From Cryobacterium cheniae (lineage in GTDB: Bacteria > Actinomycetota > Actinomycetes > Actinomycetales > Microbacteriaceae), in the NCBI RefSeq assembly GCF_004403395.1, contig NZ_SOGN01000044.1, positions 124,446 through 188,445 on the forward strand: 64,000 bases of DNA, in the 5' to 3' direction. The position numbers and the translations under genes are program-made. Shown here in pieces: positions 49,768 through 58,705 of this stretch; the stretch's first letter is position 1, and each line of letters opens with the position of its first letter. Below the pieces are notes generated by a model. That model saw only the letters and a program-made list of their open reading frames with translations. It had not been told where the DNA came from and searched no databases.

Positions 49768-49812
49768 ATGCTAAAAATTATTTGGGTCATGAATGACCCG
49801 AGCTCACGCTGA
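49768..49812 (+). CDS. Possible 14-residue leader ORF before the radical SAM gene
   Basis: AAAAAGGA lies six bases before ATG 49768, which opens a 14-codon ORF (MLKIIWVMNDPSSR). It overlaps the palindrome 49784-49799 and lies in a strikingly AT-rich patch (49,730-49,790) in otherwise GC-rich DNA. TATGCT (49767-49772) could alternatively be a -10, in which case the ORF would not be transcribed in full. Confidence 0.3.
   Translation: MLKIIWVMNDPSSR
49784..49799. promoter_or_regulatory. Palindrome upstream of the radical SAM gene
   Basis: GGGTCAT-GA-ATGACCC is a perfect inverted repeat beside an AT-rich promoter-like patch about 100 bases before the radical SAM start. It suits an operator for a dimeric regulator, possibly Crp/Fnr- or NO-responsive given the island content. 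Confidence 0.5.
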
Positions 49813-49894
49813 CGGAAACCCCGAAGCAGCTCGAAACCACAGGCGCGACCAACCGGCATCAGCCGGACACGGACGCCTGGGCGAGGAACCCCGC

Positions 49895-51070
49895 ATGACC
49901 GAATCCCCCCGCAAACGCCCAGTGCGATTGCTGCACCACGACGCCGCCGAACGGCCCTTCATCGTCATCTGGGAGGTCACCCGAGCCTGCCAATTGGTCT
50001 GCACCCACTGCCGCGCCGACGCCATCCGCAGCCGCAACCCGTTCGAGCTCAGCACCAAGCAGGGCAAGGAGCTGCTCGACGACCTGGCCGCGTTCGGCAC
50101 GCCACGCCCACTCATCGTGCTTACCGGCGGCGACCCCTTCGAACGGCCCGACCTGCCCGAACTCGTTGCCCACGGCACCGGGCTTGGGCTGAGCATGGCC
50201 CTCTCCCCCTCGGTGACCCCGAAGCTCACCCGCTCGGTGCTCGTCGAACTGCACGACGCCGGAGCGAAGGCCATCTCGCTCTCGCTGGACGGGGCGACCG
50301 CCGCCTCCCACGACGCATTCCGAGGCGTGAACGGCGTATTCGACGACACCATGGTCGCGGCCCGGATGGTGCGCGAGGTCGGCTACCGGCTGCAGATCAA
50401 CACGACGGTTACCGCCGCCAACGTGCACGAGTTGCCGTCCATTCTCAAAACCGTGCTCGAGCTTGGCACCACACTCTGGAGCATCTTCTTCCTGGTACCG
50501 ACCGGGCGCGGCAAGCTGCTGCAGGCACTGAGCGCCGATCAGGTGGAAGAGGTGCTGCACTGGATGCACGACGTCTCCGACCTTGTGGCCATCAAGGCGA
50601 CCGAGGCGCCGCACTACCGTCGAATCGCGATCCAGCGCGCCGGTGTGGCCGACCTCGACGCGACCTTCCCTGTGGGCCCGCTGCGGGCCGAGCTGCGTCG
50701 GGACACCGCCGACCTCCTGACGGGAGACGAGCCGAAACGGCGCGCCGCCCGGGCCCCGATCGATGTCAATTCCGGCCGCGGCTTCGCCTTCGTCGACCAT
50801 GTCGGCCTGGTCTACCCGAGCGGGTTCCTGCCGGTCGCTGTGGGCTGTGTTCGCGACCAGCCGTTCTCGGAGATCTACCGTGACGCCGAGCTGCTGCAAG
50901 ATCTACGCTCGCCCGACAAGTTCGGCGACCGGTGCGGCCGCTGCGAGTTCCGCACGGTCTGCGGCGGGTCACGGTCGCATGCCTATGCCGTCACCGGCGA
51001 TCCACTCGCTGCCGACCCAAGCTGTGCCTTTGAGCCGGCGATGCCGGACGAGCCGGCAGAAGCTCACTGA
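49895..51070 (+). CDS. Radical SAM/SPASM protein
   Basis: A 391-residue radical SAM enzyme with the cluster motif Cys-x3-Cys-x2-Cys at residues 32-39 (RACQLVCTHCRAD), TGGDPFERPDL near 80, and a C-terminal SPASM/twitch region with four or more Cys (CGRCEFRTVCGG, DPSC). The pattern resembles the actinobacterial TIGR04053 family, which is related to heme-modifying AhbD/NirJ-type proteins (from memory). GAGGAA precedes ATG 49895. It neighbours NO reductase and a broken heme gene, hence a role in heme or a peptide modification is possible but unproven. Confidence 0.82.
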   Translation: MTESPRKRPVRLLHHDAAERPFIVIWEVTRACQLVCTHCRADAIRSRNPFELSTKQGKELLDDLAAFGTPRPLIVLTGGDPFERPDLPELVAHGTGLGLSMALSPSVTPKLTRSVLVELHDAGAKAISLSLDGATAASHDAFRGVNGVFDDTMVAARMVREVGYRLQINTTVTAANVHELPSILKTVLELGTTLWSIFFLVPTGRGKLLQALSADQVEEVLHWMHDVSDLVAIKATEAPHYRRIAIQRAGVADLDATFPVGPLRAELRRDTADLLTGDEPKRRAARAPIDVNSGRGFAFVDHVGLVYPSGFLPVAVGCVRDQPFSEIYRDAELLQDLRSPDKFGDRCGRCEFRTVCGGSRSHAYAVTGDPLAADPSCAFEPAMPDEPAEAH

Positions 51071-51144: not shown

Positions 51145-51417
51145 TCAGGGCAGGTTGTGCTTGCCGCCAACCCACTGCAGGGCGCCGATCAGGGCCACGC
51201 CGACCCCGGCCATGCCCACGAACATGCCGAGCATCATCCAGAACAGCAGCGGTTCCAAGCCGGCGACGATGGCGTCCGTGCGCACGATGGTGCCCACGAG
51301 AAAGCCGAAGATCGGCGCGAACAGGCCGATGAACGATCCCACCAGCATCAGGCGGATGCACCGGGTGCGATGGGCGGGTGAGGCCGGGCGGTTCTTCTCC
51401 CGCAGAACGTCGCTCAT
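51145..51417 (-). CDS. Two-helix membrane protein of the NO reductase operon
   Basis: A 90-residue protein with a basic start (REKNRPASPAHRTRC) and two hydrophobic helices (~22-45, LMLVGSFIGLFAPIFGFLVG; ~55-82, FWMMLGMFVGMAGVGVALIG). The start overlaps the slipin stop by ATGA. Family unknown. As the last gene of a four-gene coupled operon it may be an assembly or complex subunit; no direct evidence. Confidence 0.75.
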   Translation of the reverse strand: MSDVLREKNRPASPAHRTRCIRLMLVGSFIGLFAPIFGFLVGTIVRTDAIVAGLEPLLFWMMLGMFVGMAGVGVALIGALQWVGGKHNLP

Positions 51418-52205
51418 GAGGGGCTCCCGACCGGCATGGTAGCGGGGACCGAAGCGGACATCTTGTTGAGGAACGGACCGATGATGTCCATCGGCAGCGG
51501 GAAGACCACGGTGGAGTTGTGGTCGGCGCCGAGCTCGAGCAGAGTCTGCAGGTAGCGCAGTTGCAGTGAGGCGGGGTTGCGGCTGAGGATTTCGGCGGCC
51601 TGACCGAGCTCCTCCGAGGCCTGCAATTCACCGTGCGCGTTGATGATTTTTGCACGGCGATCCCGCTCGGCCTCGGCCTCGCGTGCCATGGCCCGTTGCA
51701 TCGCCTGCGGAATCTCCACGTCCTTGATCTCGACGACCTTGACCTGGACACCCCACGGTTCGGTCTGGGCGTTTATATTGCGGGCCAGATCCTCGTTGAG
51801 GTCGGCGCGGTGCGCCAGCAGGGTGTCCAGGTCGGCACGGCCCACGACCGATCGCAGCGTGGTCTGCGCCATCTGCGAGGTGGCCATGGCATGGTTCTCC
51901 ACGCCCATCACCGACAGGACCGGGTCGGTCACCTGAAACAGCACGACCGCGTTCACCCGGGCCGGCACGTTGTCCTTGGTAATGACATCCTGCGGAGGGA
52001 TGGTGAGGGTAACGATGCGCAGGTCGACCCTGATCATGCTGTCGATGCCGAGGAAGACGATCTGCACACCCGGCTGGCGGATCGGGCGGAGCCGCCCGAA
52101 CCTGAACGACACCCCGCGTTCGTACTCCTGCAGCACCTTGAACGAGGCCGCCAGCCAGATCAGGAAGAGGCCCCCCACAGCGAGCGTGGTTATCAGGATC
52201 GCCAT
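51414..52205 (-). CDS. Slipin (SPFH/stomatin-family protein)
   Basis: A 263-residue SPFH protein: N-terminal membrane helix (~2-22), then EYERGVSFRFGRLR, PPQDVITKDNVPARVNAVVLFQV and the coiled-coil MAREAEAERDRRAKIINAHGE in part. Stomatin-type proteins form ring or scaffold assemblies in membranes and influence partner membrane proteins. The start overlaps the upstream stop by one base (TGATG) and its stop overlaps the next start (ATGA). Tight coupling to a quinol NO reductase suggests it organises that enzyme (inference). Confidence 0.88.
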   Translation of the reverse strand: MAILITTLAVGGLFLIWLAASFKVLQEYERGVSFRFGRLRPIRQPGVQIVFLGIDSMIRVDLRIVTLTIPPQDVITKDNVPARVNAVVLFQVTDPVLSVMGVENHAMATSQMAQTTLRSVVGRADLDTLLAHRADLNEDLARNINAQTEPWGVQVKVVEIKDVEIPQAMQRAMAREAEAERDRRAKIINAHGELQASEELGQAAEILSRNPASLQLRYLQTLLELGADHNSTVVFPLPMDIIGPFLNKMSASVPATMPVGSPS

Positions 52206-52966
52206 CAGCGGTTCTCCCCGCGGGTCCAGTCGGGGTCCGCGCCGACGCGGCCAGGGCCGGCTTCCATTTCCAGTTCGGCCCAGCGGGCCGAGAACGATGA
52301 AGGCACTGTGTTTCCTTTCGGTTCAACGGGGTCCGGGGCACGCCGGCCGGTTTTTCTGATGGTGCCGTAACCGCGGGCGCCCTCCGCCTGGCGGGCGGCC
52401 TCCCGTGTGGCGATGCTCTCGTCGAGGCTCTCGTGGCGCAGGTGCTCGGGAAACCCGGCCGGGCTGCGCCGCAAGTGCGACCAGAGCGGCCAGCTGCCCA
52501 CGGCGATGATGATGGAGGCAGCCGCCAGGATCACGAGCTCGACACCGGTGCGCTGCTGCAACATCGTGGCCAGCGGCCATGCCAGCCCGAGCACCACAAC
52601 GGCACAGGCGATACCACGGTGGAATCGCTCAGCCTCCGAGCTCGGCCACGGATCGATGTTGCGGGAGACCTGGCGGCCGGTGTCGGACGTAGTGCATGTG
52701 TCTTTCACCGGGCAGGGGTTGCAGACCGTGGGACTGGCCTGATATCGCGTGACCCGGTTGTCCGGGTCGAAGGAGATCGGCCACAGCCACTGGTCTTCCG
52801 AGCACTTCCACGCATCGTGGTCTTCGTGGTAGCTGAAGGCCCCCGCTCGCGCTGCGGTCGTCGTGGTGGCGGTTCGCCGGGCGAGCAGGTCCAGGACGTG
52901 TGCCACGACCAGCAGAAAGCCGCCGTAGACGAGCGCGAACCAGATCTCCGAATTGATCTCCTGCAT
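52205..52966 (-). CDS. Membrane protein with Cys motif, NO reductase operon
   Basis: A 253-residue protein: helix 1 (~8-27, WFALVYGGFLLVVAHVLDLL), a ~90-residue soluble segment with clustered cysteines (AWKCSED; TVCNPCPVKDTC), two more helices (~118-160) and a charged tail. The Cys cluster could bind a metal or Fe-S centre. Family unknown to me. It overlaps the norZ stop by one base (TAATG) and the slipin start by one base, so translation of all is coupled. It may be an accessory subunit of the NO reductase. Confidence 0.75.
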   Translation of the reverse strand: MQEINSEIWFALVYGGFLLVVAHVLDLLARRTATTTTAARAGAFSYHEDHDAWKCSEDQWLWPISFDPDNRVTRYQASPTVCNPCPVKDTCTTSDTGRQVSRNIDPWPSSEAERFHRGIACAVVVLGLAWPLATMLQQRTGVELVILAAASIIIAVGSWPLWSHLRRSPAGFPEHLRHESLDESIATREAARQAEGARGYGTIRKTGRRAPDPVEPKGNTVPSSFSARWAELEMEAGPGRVGADPDWTRGENR

Positions 52967-55380
52967 TAGAAGCCGTCCACCGGGCGGTCCGGGTTGGACT
53001 CCGGTGTCGCGTCCACGCTCGACCGGGCATCCGATGCGTATCCCAGCGTCGGTTCTGCGCTGTACGCGGTGACGGGTACCGATGGTTGGGCCTCAACGAA
53101 CAGGGCCTCCATGGGCACCTCCTGGGTGCTGCCCTTGATGCGGTAGCGCACTCCGAGCCAGGCGATCCAGACGAACGGCATGACACCACCGACGATGAAG
53201 AGCACGTCACCGGGCAGCCGCAACCACTCGAGCACGGCATTGCCGGGTTCAGTGATGAAGTTCAGGCTGCGCGCCTCGAAGTAGCCGTCGTTGATGGAGT
53301 GCCACAGCTGGATGACGCCGAGCGGCAGCAGGGTCGCGAAGGTCATCCAGGCCAGGCCGAGGTTCAGGCACCAGAACGACAGCTTTGCGAGCCGGTCAGG
53401 CCAGCGCTCCGGTGGAATCAGGTAGCGAAGGGCGAACAGGGCCAGTCCGACTCCGAGCATCCCGTAGACCCCCATCATGGCTGCGTGGGCGTGATTGGCC
53501 GTTAGCGCGGTGCCGATCTCGTAGTAGGAGATGATCGGCAGGTTGATCAGGAAGCCGAAGACACCCGCGCCGAGGAAGTTCCAGAACCCGACAGCCACGA
53601 GGAACATGACCGCCCAGCGGTGCGGGAACGGGGCCGAGCTACGGGACTCCTGCCGGGCACCGAGCTGCAGGAAACTCCACGCCTCGATGGTCAGGAAGGT
53701 CAGCGGAATCACCTCGAGCGCGGAGAAGAACGCCCCGAGCGCCATGTGCTCCACGGGCGTTCCCGAGAAGTACAGGTGGTGCATGGTGCCAAGGATTCCG
53801 CCGGCGGAGTAGAGGATGACGTCGAGGAGGATGATCTGCATGGCGATCTTGTGCTTGACCACGCCGAGCATTACGAAGATATACGCGACCATGACCGTCG
53901 TGAACAGCTCCAGGAAGTCTTCAACCCAGAGGTGCACCACCCAGAAGCGCCAGAACTCGGCCACGCTTAGATGCACCTCAGTGCCAGCCAGCATCCCTAC
54001 CGCGTAGAACGCGGGAATCGCCAAACCAGAGTAGAAGAACAGCCACGGCAGGTTGAAGCGGTGTTCAGACTTGAGCCGAGCCCGGATGCCGCGGAAGATA
54101 ATGACGATCCAGAGGGTCAGGCCCACTACGAGCATGCCCTGCCAGACCTTGGGCAGATCGATGTATTCCCACTGCATGCCCCAGAAAATCGAGTCCTTGG
54201 CCGCTTCGACGCCGAACACGCTCATCGCCTCACCGACGAAGGAGCCGGCGATCACGACAGCGAGAGCACCGAGCAGCGCATAGGCGAGCCAGTGCTGGCG
54301 CTTGGGCTCCCGGCCGGAAATATACGGCGCTAGGAAGATGCCCGCAGCCAGGAACGACGCGGCCGTCCAGAGCAGCGAGAGCTGCACGTGCCAGGTGCGG
54401 GCGAGGTTGAACGGCAGGATCTGGGCCAGGTCAATTCCGAAGAAGCTAGTGAGGTCCACTCGATAGTGCTCGATGGCCGCGCCCAGGAACGCCTGAGCGA
54501 GGAACATCAACGCGACAACGAAGAAGAACCAGGCCGTGGCGGACTGCGCCGGGGTCACTTTCACCTCGCCCGGCTGCCGGAACGACAACGCCGGGGTCTC
54601 TTCGCCGTGCTGCCAGCCCATCTTTTTGCTCCACCGGCCGTACAGGCCGAAGAGCGCACCGAGGGCGACGAGTAGCGAGATGAGCGAGAGTGCGCTCCAC
54701 ACGATGATGTCAGCGGTCGGCGCGTTGTCAACAAGCGGTTCGGCGGGCCAGTTATTCGTGTACGAGTAGTCGTGTCCCGGCCGCTCGGCCGCGGAGGCCC
54801 AGGCGGTCCAGGCAAAGAACGCCGTGAGCTCGTGCACCTCGGCCTCGTCGGTGATCGCGTACGGGATCAACCCGTACTGCGTCGTCGGGGCTCCGAAGTA
54901 GTCAGCGTAATGCTGGGTGATCTCCTCGAACGCCTCGATCTGCAGATCGGTGAAGACCAGGTCTCCCGAGGCAGCGTCGTAGCGATTGGTACGCATCATC
55001 TCAACGAGTTCACCCTGCGGGTCCTGTACTCCGGAGGCGGTAAGGGCCTCGAGCACAAATTCGGAAGACCGGCGCAGATAGTCGGCCGTGTAGTCCGGCC
55101 CCAAATACCCCCCGTGCCCCATGATCGAGCCGTACTGCTGCAGTCCGCGACCGGCGAAGATCTGCTGGCCGTCGGTGATCTCAGCGCTACTGAAGACGAC
55201 CTCTCCCTGCGAGTCGACCACCTGCTTGGGCTGCGGCATCGAGTCGGTGTATGTCCTCAGTGCGAGGAATCCCATGACGGCGAACCCGAAGACCATGACC
55301 AGGGCAACGCCCTGAACCCACCCCTTCGAGACCATCAACTCCGATCGCACGCGTTTTACCTTGGATCGTATTCGGACCAC
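52966..55380 (-). CDS. norZ: Quinol-dependent nitric oxide reductase (qNOR)
   Basis: An 804-residue single-subunit NO reductase that reduces 2 NO to N2O with electrons from quinol in the membrane. It has the N-terminal cytochrome-c-like extension without heme-binding CxxCH (GRGLQQYGSIMGHGGYLGPDYTADYL) and a 12-14-helix core with heme and FeB ligands in HVQLSLLWTAASF, VHLWVEDFLELF and NHAHAAMMGVYGMLG. GTG 55380 has AAAGGGG eight bases upstream. First gene of a four-gene coupled operon. Probably serves NO detoxification: no nitrite reductase is present. Confidence 0.93.
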   Translation of the reverse strand: MVRIRSKVKRVRSELMVSKGWVQGVALVMVFGFAVMGFLALRTYTDSMPQPKQVVDSQGEVVFSSAEITDGQQIFAGRGLQQYGSIMGHGGYLGPDYTADYLRRSSEFVLEALTASGVQDPQGELVEMMRTNRYDAASGDLVFTDLQIEAFEEITQHYADYFGAPTTQYGLIPYAITDEAEVHELTAFFAWTAWASAAERPGHDYSYTNNWPAEPLVDNAPTADIIVWSALSLISLLVALGALFGLYGRWSKKMGWQHGEETPALSFRQPGEVKVTPAQSATAWFFFVVALMFLAQAFLGAAIEHYRVDLTSFFGIDLAQILPFNLARTWHVQLSLLWTAASFLAAGIFLAPYISGREPKRQHWLAYALLGALAVVIAGSFVGEAMSVFGVEAAKDSIFWGMQWEYIDLPKVWQGMLVVGLTLWIVIIFRGIRARLKSEHRFNLPWLFFYSGLAIPAFYAVGMLAGTEVHLSVAEFWRFWVVHLWVEDFLELFTTVMVAYIFVMLGVVKHKIAMQIILLDVILYSAGGILGTMHHLYFSGTPVEHMALGAFFSALEVIPLTFLTIEAWSFLQLGARQESRSSAPFPHRWAVMFLVAVGFWNFLGAGVFGFLINLPIISYYEIGTALTANHAHAAMMGVYGMLGVGLALFALRYLIPPERWPDRLAKLSFWCLNLGLAWMTFATLLPLGVIQLWHSINDGYFEARSLNFITEPGNAVLEWLRLPGDVLFIVGGVMPFVWIAWLGVRYRIKGSTQEVPMEALFVEAQPSVPVTAYSAEPTLGYASDARSSVDATPESNPDRPVDGF

Positions 55381-55540: not shown

Positions 55541-57011
55541 GTGCTAGAACAACTCCGGACCGAACCGACCCGCGTGACCATCGTCGGCGCCGGAATTAGT
55601 GGCCTCGCCACCGCCTGCTTCCTGCACCACAGCCTCGGCGACGAAGCGCAGATCACCGTGGTCGAGGGCACCGACCGACGGGGCGGAAAAATTTCAACGC
55701 GAACACTCGCGGGCCATCCATTCGATACCGGCCCTGACTCACTGATGGTACGGTCCCCGTGGTGGCGGCTCTGCTCGAGGATCTCGGTCTGTCCGGTGCC
55801 GTAGTGGCACCGGTTGGCGGGGGCGCGCGCATCTACAGCCGCGATCGCCTGCGGTCGTTGCCTGGGGGAACCCTGTTCGGCGTTCCCGGCGGGCTGCTGC
55901 CGCTTGCTTCATTCCCGGCTGCTCTCGCCGCTCGGGCCGGCCCGCGCCGACCTCGACCTGGTGCGTCCCAGCAGCCACCCGGTATCGGCTGACCCGTCGA
56001 TCGGCGAGATTGTGCGCACCCGGATGGGTGCCCACGTGTTCAACCGCCTGGTCGAGCCACTGCTCGGCAGTGTGCACGCGGGCCGGGCCGGCACTCTCAG
56101 TGCCCAGAGCACAGCTCCCCAAATCGCGTCCCTGGCCCAGAGCAACCGAAGCCTCTACCTCGGCATGCGGCGCCGGCCCGCGCCCGCGCCCGCAGCCGGC
56201 GGCAGCGCCGGCCCCGTGCTCGTCACCCTGAACACCGGGCTCGACGACCTGATCGAGGCCCTCGCCGAACAGTTGACGGATGCTACGATCAGGCGCGACA
56301 GCGCTGTGACCGCGCTCACCCACGCACTCACCGCAGAGTCAACGCCCCCCAACGTCGGTGGCTATCGGCTAGACCTCGACGACGGCAGTCTTATCGGGGC
56401 CGACGTCGTCGTGGTCGCCACGCCGGCCTTCGTGTCGGCGGCCGTCGTTGCCGCAGCCAGCTCTCAGCTCGGCGCTCTGCTCGAGGAAATCGAGTACGCC
56501 AACGTCGCCAAGGTCTGCTTGGTCTATCCGCGGTCAGCGTTCCCGGCCGACCTCGCCGGTACTGGGTTTCTGGTGCCACCCGAAGAAGGCAGCCTGATCG
56601 TGGGCTGCACGTGGTCGAGCCTGAAATGGCCACACCTTCGCGGACAACGACGTGGTGCTCATCCGCTGCATGGTCGGCCGGCACGGCGACAACCGCTGGA
56701 CCACCATGACGGAAACCGCCCTCGTGCGACGGGTGCGCGACGAAGTGGACGACGCCATGGGCCTGGTCGGCACGCCCATCGAACAACCCGTGCCGCGCCG
56801 GCCGCGAGGCATGCCCCAATACCTCGTGGGCCACGAAGGCCGACTCGACGTCATTGACACCACGCTGACCGAGCTGCCCGGTCTGTTCCTGACCGGATCC
56901 GCCTACCGGGGTGTGGGGCTGGCCAGCTTCATCGCCGAGCGCACGGCGGCTGCGATCGTCTCCGCCCGAGTTGCCCACGAGGCGACCACCACGAGCGCTC
57001 TCGCTGATTAG
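55541..57011 (+). pseudogene. hemY: Protoporphyrinogen/coproporphyrinogen oxidase, three frameshifts
   Basis: The start is normal (GTG 55541 with AAGGA; FAD motif VTIVGAGISGLATACFLHHS, then GGKISTRTLAGHPFDTGPDSLM). The frame shifts near 55755 (to VAALLEDLGLSGAV), near 55915 (to RLLSPLGPARADLDLV) and near 56635 (to FADNDVVLIRCMVGRHGD). The C-terminal FAD motif LFLTGSAYRGVGLASFIAE is intact. All domains are recognisable, so inactivation is recent. It catalysed a late heme synthesis step; another copy must exist elsewhere if the cell makes heme. Confidence 0.85.
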
Positions 57012-57389
57012 GCAGACCCGCGCCAGCTGACCCCAGCCGGCGTCGACTGCGCGCTGCGCTTGCATGCGCCTAGCGGGACCATCAGAATTCCCGCCGCTGT
57101 GCATCCGTGCCCGAACGCATGGCTGCGGGAGTATCACCTCGCCGGAGACGCCGCGGCTTGTGCGCTGCCCGGTCGCGGTGGTGCGAAAGGTCTTCGCCTG
57201 GCTGGCCGCGATCAGACATTCATGTTCTGCGGGCTCGCCCGCGCTGGAGAGAGATTCCCCGGCGGACCAAGCCAGCGACTCCGTCCCTGCTCATGGCAGC
57301 ACCTCGAGGACGCCGCGGGCGCCCTTCTCGGCATCCCACTGCCCACGTTCGGCCCGGCATCCAGCACCCAGACCCGCACACGCTCACCC

Positions 57390-57700
57390 ACCTTGGCTTG
57401 GAGCGGGAGGGCGGCGTGCTGGTGAAAGACAGCGCCGGCAGCTCCTTCGCGCTCGGCGACATGTGCTCCCACGCCGACATTTCCCTGTCGGAGGGTTTCG
57501 TGGAAGGCGACGCCCTGGAATGCTGGGCACACGGCGGCCGGTTCGATCTGTCCACCGGGCGGGCCCGAACCCTGCCGGCCTCCGAACCGGTTCCGGTCTA
57601 CCAGCTCACCACCGTGGACGGCGATGTCTCCGTCGACGTCAGCAACCAGGTCGACGTGTCGGCCCACGTGGCCTCGACCGAGGGGCTGCTCGACCCAGGC
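57390..57700 (+). pseudogene. Rieske-type ferredoxin, 5' part lost
   Basis: The frame encodes FALGDMCSHADISLSEGFVEGDALECWAHGGRF in two pieces (cluster motifs CSH and CWAH), followed by SEPVPVYQLTTVDGDVSVDV. The family's N-terminal ~35 residues are replaced by unrelated sequence, and the end runs without a stop into a 31-bp tandem duplication. Normal members are ~105 residues and serve Suf or oxygenase electron transfer. The 57,012-57,390 stretch before it holds no recognisable gene. Confidence 0.65.
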
Positions 57701-57706
57701 TCTGCA

Positions 57707-57768
57707 CAGGCTGGGTGCGGCTCGCCTGGACTCGGATCAGGCTGGGTGCGGCTCGCCTGGACTCGGAT
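57707..57768. repeat. Perfect 31-bp tandem duplication
   Basis: The unit CAGGCTGGGTGCGGCTCGCC plus 11 more bases occurs twice head to tail (57707-57737, 57738-57768). Its length is not a multiple of three, so the duplication shifts the Rieske reading frame. It ends on the stop codon of the converging regulator gene. Confidence 0.9.
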
Positions 57769-58568
57769 CAGTCAGCGACGGTCTCCGACGCATCGGTCCA
57801 GCTCTTCGGCAGCTCCACAATGCACAGGTGAGGCTGCACGAATGGTCTCAAGCGGATGGCGTCGCCGTCGTGGCCGAGCGACTGCGCGAGGCCCTTCATG
57901 AGGCCCAGGTGCACCGAGCAAACCACGGCCGGATTCTCCCGCGCCTCCGCCCGGAACGGGCACCCGGTCAGCGCAATGGCTGACTTGTCGGCCTGCAACG
58001 CGGGCTCGAAGCCGATCTCGGTGAGCACACGTAGCAGCGGGGGAACCACGTCGGCGGCAGGGGTGTTGGCGCCGGGCGCTTGCGTGGCGTCGGCGACCGA
58101 TGCCCGGGCGACCGGTCCGTTCGTGGTCAGCCCGTCGGTGGTGCGCTCGCCGGTGCTTGGCTCCCCGGAGGTCACGGCATTCGCCACGGCCGCGTACTGC
58201 GCCGACCAGCGCTCGCCGGCCCGCACCGCGCGGGCGCGGCCGCCATCGAGGTCTTCGGCGATCACCGCGGCGAGGGCCTCCGTGAGCTGCTGCTGGGCGG
58301 TTTCGGTCGACAGCGGCCCCGCGACCGCGCTAAAAAGTACGTGCGGGCGCCCGCGTCGCCCGGCACTGGCGATGGTCCGTTGCACGAGCCCGGCCGTCCC
58401 GAGGTGCTCCAGGTGAAAACGCGCCGTGGTGATGTGCAGCCCGAGGGCCGTGGCAACTGCGCCGACGTCGAGGGGCACTGCGGACTCGGTGAGTAGAGCC
58501 AGTGCACGACGGCGCGGCTCACTGGCCAGGGCGGCATGTTGGGCGTCGTTCTTCGTGGTCGTAACCAT
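57768..58568 (-). CDS. SufR-like Fe-S transcriptional regulator
   Basis: A 266-residue protein: an N-terminal winged helix (~10-75, SEPRRRALALLTES, then GLHITTARFHLEHLGTAGL) and a long C-terminal domain with three well-placed cysteines (ALTGCPFRAEA, AVVCSVHLGLMKG, PHLCIVEL), as in SufR-type regulators that ligate an Fe-S cluster. ATG 58568 lacks a ribosome-binding site. It is near the NO reductase operon and Rieske remnant, so it may sense NO or Fe-S status; the target genes are not proven. Confidence 0.78.
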   Translation of the reverse strand: MVTTTKNDAQHAALASEPRRRALALLTESAVPLDVGAVATALGLHITTARFHLEHLGTAGLVQRTIASAGRRGRPHVLFSAVAGPLSTETAQQQLTEALAAVIAEDLDGGRARAVRAGERWSAQYAAVANAVTSGEPSTGERTTDGLTTNGPVARASVADATQAPGANTPAADVVPPLLRVLTEIGFEPALQADKSAIALTGCPFRAEARENPAVVCSVHLGLMKGLAQSLGHDGDAIRLRPFVQPHLCIVELPKSWTDASETVAD

Positions 58569-58705
58569 GCATTTACAGTAGCAGCGTGCGGTTAAAGCTT
58601 CTTTAGATTCTGGTCGCCAGCCGATGGAAGGCACCCGGACTGTCACTGCGCTCTCTGCGGTGAACACCTTGAAGCCGATGCCCCGGTCGGTGGGAACGAC
58701 GGTTT

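Follow-up and report, generated by a model that had tools for sequence, protein, structure and literature searches.

Reduction of nitric oxide (NO) yields the greenhouse gas N2O, and the quinol-dependent NO reductase (qNOR), encoded by norZ, is the textbook one-gene enzyme for this reaction. In the case of cNOR, NorQ and NorD help with cofactor insertion or folding, and SPFH proteins such as HflK/HflC and the stomatins modulate membrane proteases and assembly. The qNOR is described as a single-subunit enzyme whose protons enter from the cytoplasmic side (PMC6713497) and whose electrons come from periplasmic quinol sites (PMC13087809). Other qNORs function from norZ alone and need neither NorQD nor further genes for FeB insertion (PMC9976466). 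Because qNOR is described in this way (PMC6713497, PMC9976466), a consistent linkage of norZ to additional genes is of interest, and a partner set found across many actinobacterial families, spanning Mycolicibacter as well as soil and cold-living genera, would change the current picture.

We analysed a stretch of 64,000 nucleotides of the Cryobacterium cheniae genome, referred to here as the window. Four consecutive genes were confirmed on its minus strand, together with the overlaps of 1 or 4 bases that the original prediction had read between them. The first is norZ (52966-55380, 804 amino acids, GTG start). It is followed by a gene for a cysteine-containing membrane protein of 253 amino acids (52205-52966), in the following called the Cys4 partner, then by the norZ-linked ortholog of a slipin, an SPFH protein of 263 amino acids (51414-52205), and finally by a gene for a small two-helix membrane protein of 90 amino acids with a Gly-rich (A/G)P(L/I)FGFLxG segment (51145-51417). 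The TAA stop of norZ sits within a TAATG shared with the start of the Cys gene, the TGA stop of the Cys gene sits within a TGATG shared with the slipin start, and the slipin and two-helix genes overlap in ATGA. At the norZ-Cys junction, overlap was seen in 28 of 47 loci and a distance of at most 20 nt in 18 others, and at the Cys-slipin junction overlap was seen in 36 of 44; across loci, these overlaps exceed chance. A fixed stoichiometry, which had been deduced from the overlaps, is not supported, as overlaps alone do not imply it. Regarding protein families, Pfam and NCBIfam describe NorZ and the slipin (Band_7) and give no accepted family for the Cys protein or the two-helix protein. Among named organisms, C. 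breve is closest to the locus, with 93% for the Cys protein.

NorZ aligns to qNOR structures, e.g. 6qq5, 3ayf and 6fwf, and contains both a fused N-terminal cytochrome c-like domain (PF22085, 2e-53) and a COX1-like core (PF00115, 8e-51). Six histidine ligands (H331, H483, H534, H535, H630 and H632) and E487 near FeB were kept in all 54 actinobacterial and all 11 other NorZ proteins. Likewise, 54/54 actinobacterial proteins retain the quinol-site residues H305, W719, R721 and D725, the counterparts of residues whose importance has been shown in other qNORs (PMC13087809). As a side observation, the actinobacterial proteins carry VEDFLE beside the FeB ligand (window 53908-53937, NorZ residues 482-491) and the others a VEGFFE-like sequence (54/54 versus 0/11); VEDFLE is also present in lineages lacking the partner.

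The genome as a whole and the surroundings of the block offer further observations. This genome also has a narG scoring above the curated cut-off and, in the same gene region, a NirK-like protein scoring below it, so NorZ may take part in a short route of denitrification. The NirK-like multicopper/cupredoxin protein is a long frame near narG (L163, 12054-15113, own contig C42). Beside norZ lies a hemG-like flavin oxidase of the protoporphyrinogen oxidase type (55541-57011, plus strand) that is broken up over several reading frames, representing a pseudogene or assembly errors, followed by a Rieske [2Fe-2S] protein (57107-57901, plus strand) and a winged-helix regulator, apparently SufR-like, with a Cys motif at its C-terminus (57768-58667, minus strand). 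On the other side, a TIGR04053 radical SAM/SPASM protein, NirJ/AhbD-like, is convergent to the block (49793-51070, plus strand), and a similar gene lies downstream in several other loci. Alignment of the regions upstream of Cryobacterium norZ revealed no clear operator.

Within Cryobacterium, norZ is patchy, with 19 of 57 genomes carrying it. The Cys gene was found in exactly those 19, meaning that the two genes are jointly present in 19/19 and jointly absent in 38/38 genomes. Linked slipins, defined as copies of at least 79% identity, occur only in norZ-bearing genomes, in 18 of the 19; in the remaining one the norZ contig stops in the Cys gene. Other genomes of the genus have slipin paralogs only, with about 50% or about 35% identity.

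Outside the genus, two samples were used, one seeded with the Cys protein and thus biased, the other seeded with norZ and fairer. In the Cys-seeded sample, the order norZ-Cys-slipin was unbroken in 41/41 named loci, from genera including Georgenia, Tessaracoccus, Nocardioides, Dactylosporangium, Planobispora, Mycolicibacter and Kocuria. The norZ-seeded sample comprised 395 genomes of the class with 17 intact norZ genes, where a Cys4 gene follows norZ in 15 and a slipin is present in 14, three lineages being without it. The two norZ genes lacking a Cys4 gene are accompanied by a Cys-less partner detected by profile (G821, L140) and, at the same position, by a small membrane-helix protein with no significant match (G587, L141). 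In one additional genome, G093, a NorZ-like C-terminal half (L108, 6248-7582, 46% identical) and a distant N-terminal half (L109, 5874-6887, 36%) were noted, perhaps a split or different type of NO reductase. The norZ-based survey covered the phylum and plasmid-borne qNORs. Elsewhere in the phylum, the slipin is missing from groups f34 and f50, which do carry the Cys protein, and group f48, consisting of two actinobacterial genomes, has norZ and no partner. The partner was absent at 12 qNOR loci from other phyla and at one cyanobacterial fragment, all plasmid-borne, and tblastn found none on plasmids. As a whole, the Cys gene adjoins norZ in all loci found, and an equivalent of the two-helix gene follows the slipin in 27/44. 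The original prediction would have been refuted by accessory genes lying mostly away from norZ; instead, the neighbourhood survey found them dedicated to it. The survey supports a dedicated module of norZ, the Cys partner and the slipin in actinobacteria, for which linkage is well shown.

It could be argued that such genes simply travel together without a physical link of their products: adjacent genes are gained and lost together, and the presence in Cryobacterium is patchy. Against this, the block is kept over many actinobacterial families though its flanks differ (among the 41 named loci, flanking genes are shared only within smaller sets, mostly of close relatives), copies were not found elsewhere, and two of the proteins have a common operon-specific tail, described below. 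Mere co-inheritance appears very improbable to us.

In the case of the Cys4 partner, an alignment of 41 sequences (A1), an AF2 model and the charge pattern point to three transmembrane (TM) helices. The model has a mean pLDDT of 75, with helices at residues 6-41, 111-135 and 141-157. The counts of Lys plus Arg are 0.02 in the N-terminus before TM1, 3.9 in loop 1, 0.4 in loop 2 and 1.7 in the tail, so that by the positive-inside rule the Cys domain and the tail are predicted to be cytosolic. The Cys4 domain occupies residues 44-105 (52652-52837, minus strand), with C55, C82, C85 and C91 invariant in A1 and spaced C-x26-C-x2-C-x5-C. At the start of TM2, a WPxSExxRFHRG motif (residues 107-118, 52613-52648, minus strand) is nearly invariant in A1 and partly kept in two Cys-less partners.

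Homologues of this domain were found by profile comparison. Of the 41 members, every one matches the IS1182 transposase profile NF033551 in its Cys region (best 5e-13), and a search with the A1 profile retrieved transposase-like proteins, the lowest E-value being 6e-20. In the joint alignment with these proteins (A2), the invariant positions include F, Y, L and the four Cys, and the C-x26-C-x2-C-x5-C spacing is identical in the partner and IS1182-type transposases. Assignment of the partner as an IS1182 transposase was rejected, with 37.6 bits against a cut-off of 270 and a match only to positions 347-426 of the 488 in the profile. Modelled alone, the domain reaches a pLDDT of 83 and is mostly beta. 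Fold searches of the PDB with the whole partner and with the Cys4 domain yielded nothing convincing, although this does not in itself establish a new fold. When the partner profile was run against PDB sequences, the only hits were chance ones to a kinase.

A second resemblance concerns the WhiB proteins, which have four Cys with C-x2-C-x5-C as in the partner; the first spacer is 22 and 27 in the two WhiB proteins of this genome and 26 in the partner. Pfam matches to WhiB were obtained for 27/41 members, the best at 0.0022 and all below cut-off (the partner scores 13.9 bits against a Pfam cut-off of 23.6). Judged from these sequences, this is a likeness and not membership. One reading built on it is that NO destroys a [4Fe-4S] cluster held by the four Cys, thereby altering NorZ activity, turnover or clustering. 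The invariance of these Cys in 41 members, the WhiB-like motif with its weak Pfam matches, the predicted cytosolic face and the position next to an NO-consuming enzyme would fit such an NO or redox sensor. However, homology to WhiB does not reach the accepted threshold, the metal may be Zn instead of Fe-S, and no NO-sensing role is known for the transposase relatives. We treat a sensor as a tentative reading of low probability.

The same four invariant Cys, with the C-x2-C-x5-C spacing that this genome's WhiB proteins have too, could instead be taken as an Fe-S centre passing electrons from a cytosolic donor to NorZ. The original prediction had named an undescribed NO reductase assembly or electron-entry module, and these two parts fared differently. 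The Cys4 domain is predicted on the cytosolic side, opposite the periplasmic quinol sites (PMC13087809), the quinol residues of NorZ are fully kept in 54/54 proteins, and one partner clade is missing the Cys domain; direct electron delivery is thus unlikely. Moreover, the homology of the domain is to one from transposases, and it has no ferredoxin match. A complex for assembly, stability or regulation fits better than electron entry. The assembly part remains plausible, and literature searches on NO reductase with partners, SPFH proteins, stomatins, slipins and related terms, in which subscription papers were thinly covered, turned up no published account of the association.

The evolution of the block was followed in a NorZ tree of 66 proteins, built by a quick method that left some deep forks unresolved. 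The actinobacterial NorZ proteins form one clade, in which the partnerless group f48 branches first. Cys-less partners fall in one NorZ clade (support 99), and the loci with a slipin group strongly together. Most simply, the partner would have been gained once, its Cys domain lost once, and the slipin acquired once at a later point and then lost a few times, though the Cys-less form could also represent an independent early state. Because one clade has the partner without Cys4, the membrane part looks like the core of the protein. Both f48 and the qNORs working from norZ alone indicate that catalysis does not in general require the partners.

NorZ and the Cys protein are not homologous, and yet their C-terminal tails have a motif, YxSDRR, in common. 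In the looser form Y-x-S-D it was found in 23 tails of NorZ and 16 of the partner, where shuffling of the tails gives 0.15 and 0.11, respectively; it was not found in slipins. When a DNA pattern for YASDRR was searched in ten whole genomes, 16/17 matches lay in norZ or the Cys gene, and a reversed control pattern gave 3 matches; genome-wide, the motif is almost operon-specific. Within the window, the NorZ tail carries the Cryobacterium version YASDAR (residues 781-786, 53023-53040, minus strand), and the partner tail has diverged to YGTIRK (52352-52369, minus strand). Tails with YxSDRR were also noted at L077, L083, L106 and others. The codons of the motif vary, hence selection acts mostly on the peptide. 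This variation, and the distance of 17-116 nt to the next start in NorZ, speak against a ribosome-binding-site artefact. In five partner genes only, AGGAGA or AGGAGG lies 7 nt before the slipin start, and there the motif may also serve ribosome binding. Loci with the two-helix gene tend to have the motif (24/27, as opposed to 1/17 of those lacking the gene), a contrast drawn from few lineages. It would be natural to suppose that the shared tails have a common binding partner.

In the slipin, a Band 7 domain (residues 24-193, PF01145, 1.5e-36) follows a hydrophobic N-terminus read from the sequence. Given what SPFH proteins do in membrane assembly and the NorQ/NorD analogy, the slipin and the Cys4 partner might aid cofactor insertion or folding of NorZ while staying outside the mature enzyme, and the strict linkage and coupling of the genes would agree with this. 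On the other hand, the block has no ATPase, FeB insertion in qNOR needs no NorQD (PMC9976466), and the tail motif that NorZ and the partner have in common suggests that they interact jointly and lastingly. Such an assembly factor is possible, at odds we consider low.

Altogether, we favour a multi-protein quinol NO reductase module, in which the partner would form a complex with NorZ and the slipin and two-helix protein a scaffold, acting on assembly, stability and clustering. We give this a probability of roughly 0.5. The gene linkage points away from NorZ working as a lone subunit. NorZ would be the catalyst and would still take its electrons from menaquinol. The three-helix partner might pack against it within the membrane and expose the Cys4 domain, with Zn or [4Fe-4S] as its metal, to the cytosol, the proton-uptake side of qNOR. 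The slipin and two-helix protein could act as a membrane scaffold gathering or protecting the NorZ-partner pair, and the cytosolic YxSDRR tails of both would probably bind one common partner, perhaps in this scaffold. The likely effect would be on assembly, stability and clustering of NorZ, with Cys4 as a structural metal site or possibly an NO/redox gauge. A multi-subunit qNOR in which the transposase-type Cys4 domain, recruited into a respiratory subunit, is a cytosolic metal or NO gauge and YxSDRR docks the pair onto the slipin/two-helix scaffold is a more doubtful proposal. If true, the module would allow the action of an SPFH scaffold on a respiratory enzyme to be tested, and would show that a transposase-type Cys domain has been reused in respiration.

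Several known systems resemble parts of this module. The Cys4 domain is homologous to that of IS1182-family transposases, whereas the partner has no catalytic part and holds the domain between membrane helices. Slipin-NfeD and stomatin scaffolds likewise have a small membrane protein after the SPFH protein; here, the small protein has no NfeD match in Pfam or NCBIfam, and the pair is tied to norZ. The cNOR systems (NorC, NorQ/NorD) likewise combine an NO reductase core with extra operon genes, but the norZ block lacks a cytochrome c subunit, an AAA+ ATPase and a VWA protein, and its partners are unrelated in sequence. Finally, the single-subunit qNORs of Achromobacter/Alcaligenes xylosoxidans, Geobacillus stearothermophilus and Neisseria meningitidis belong to the same family, with heme b/b3, FeB and quinol residues kept. 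In contrast to these, actinobacterial NorZ has VEDFLE in place of VEGFFE, mostly a longer tail, and two to three dedicated membrane partners.
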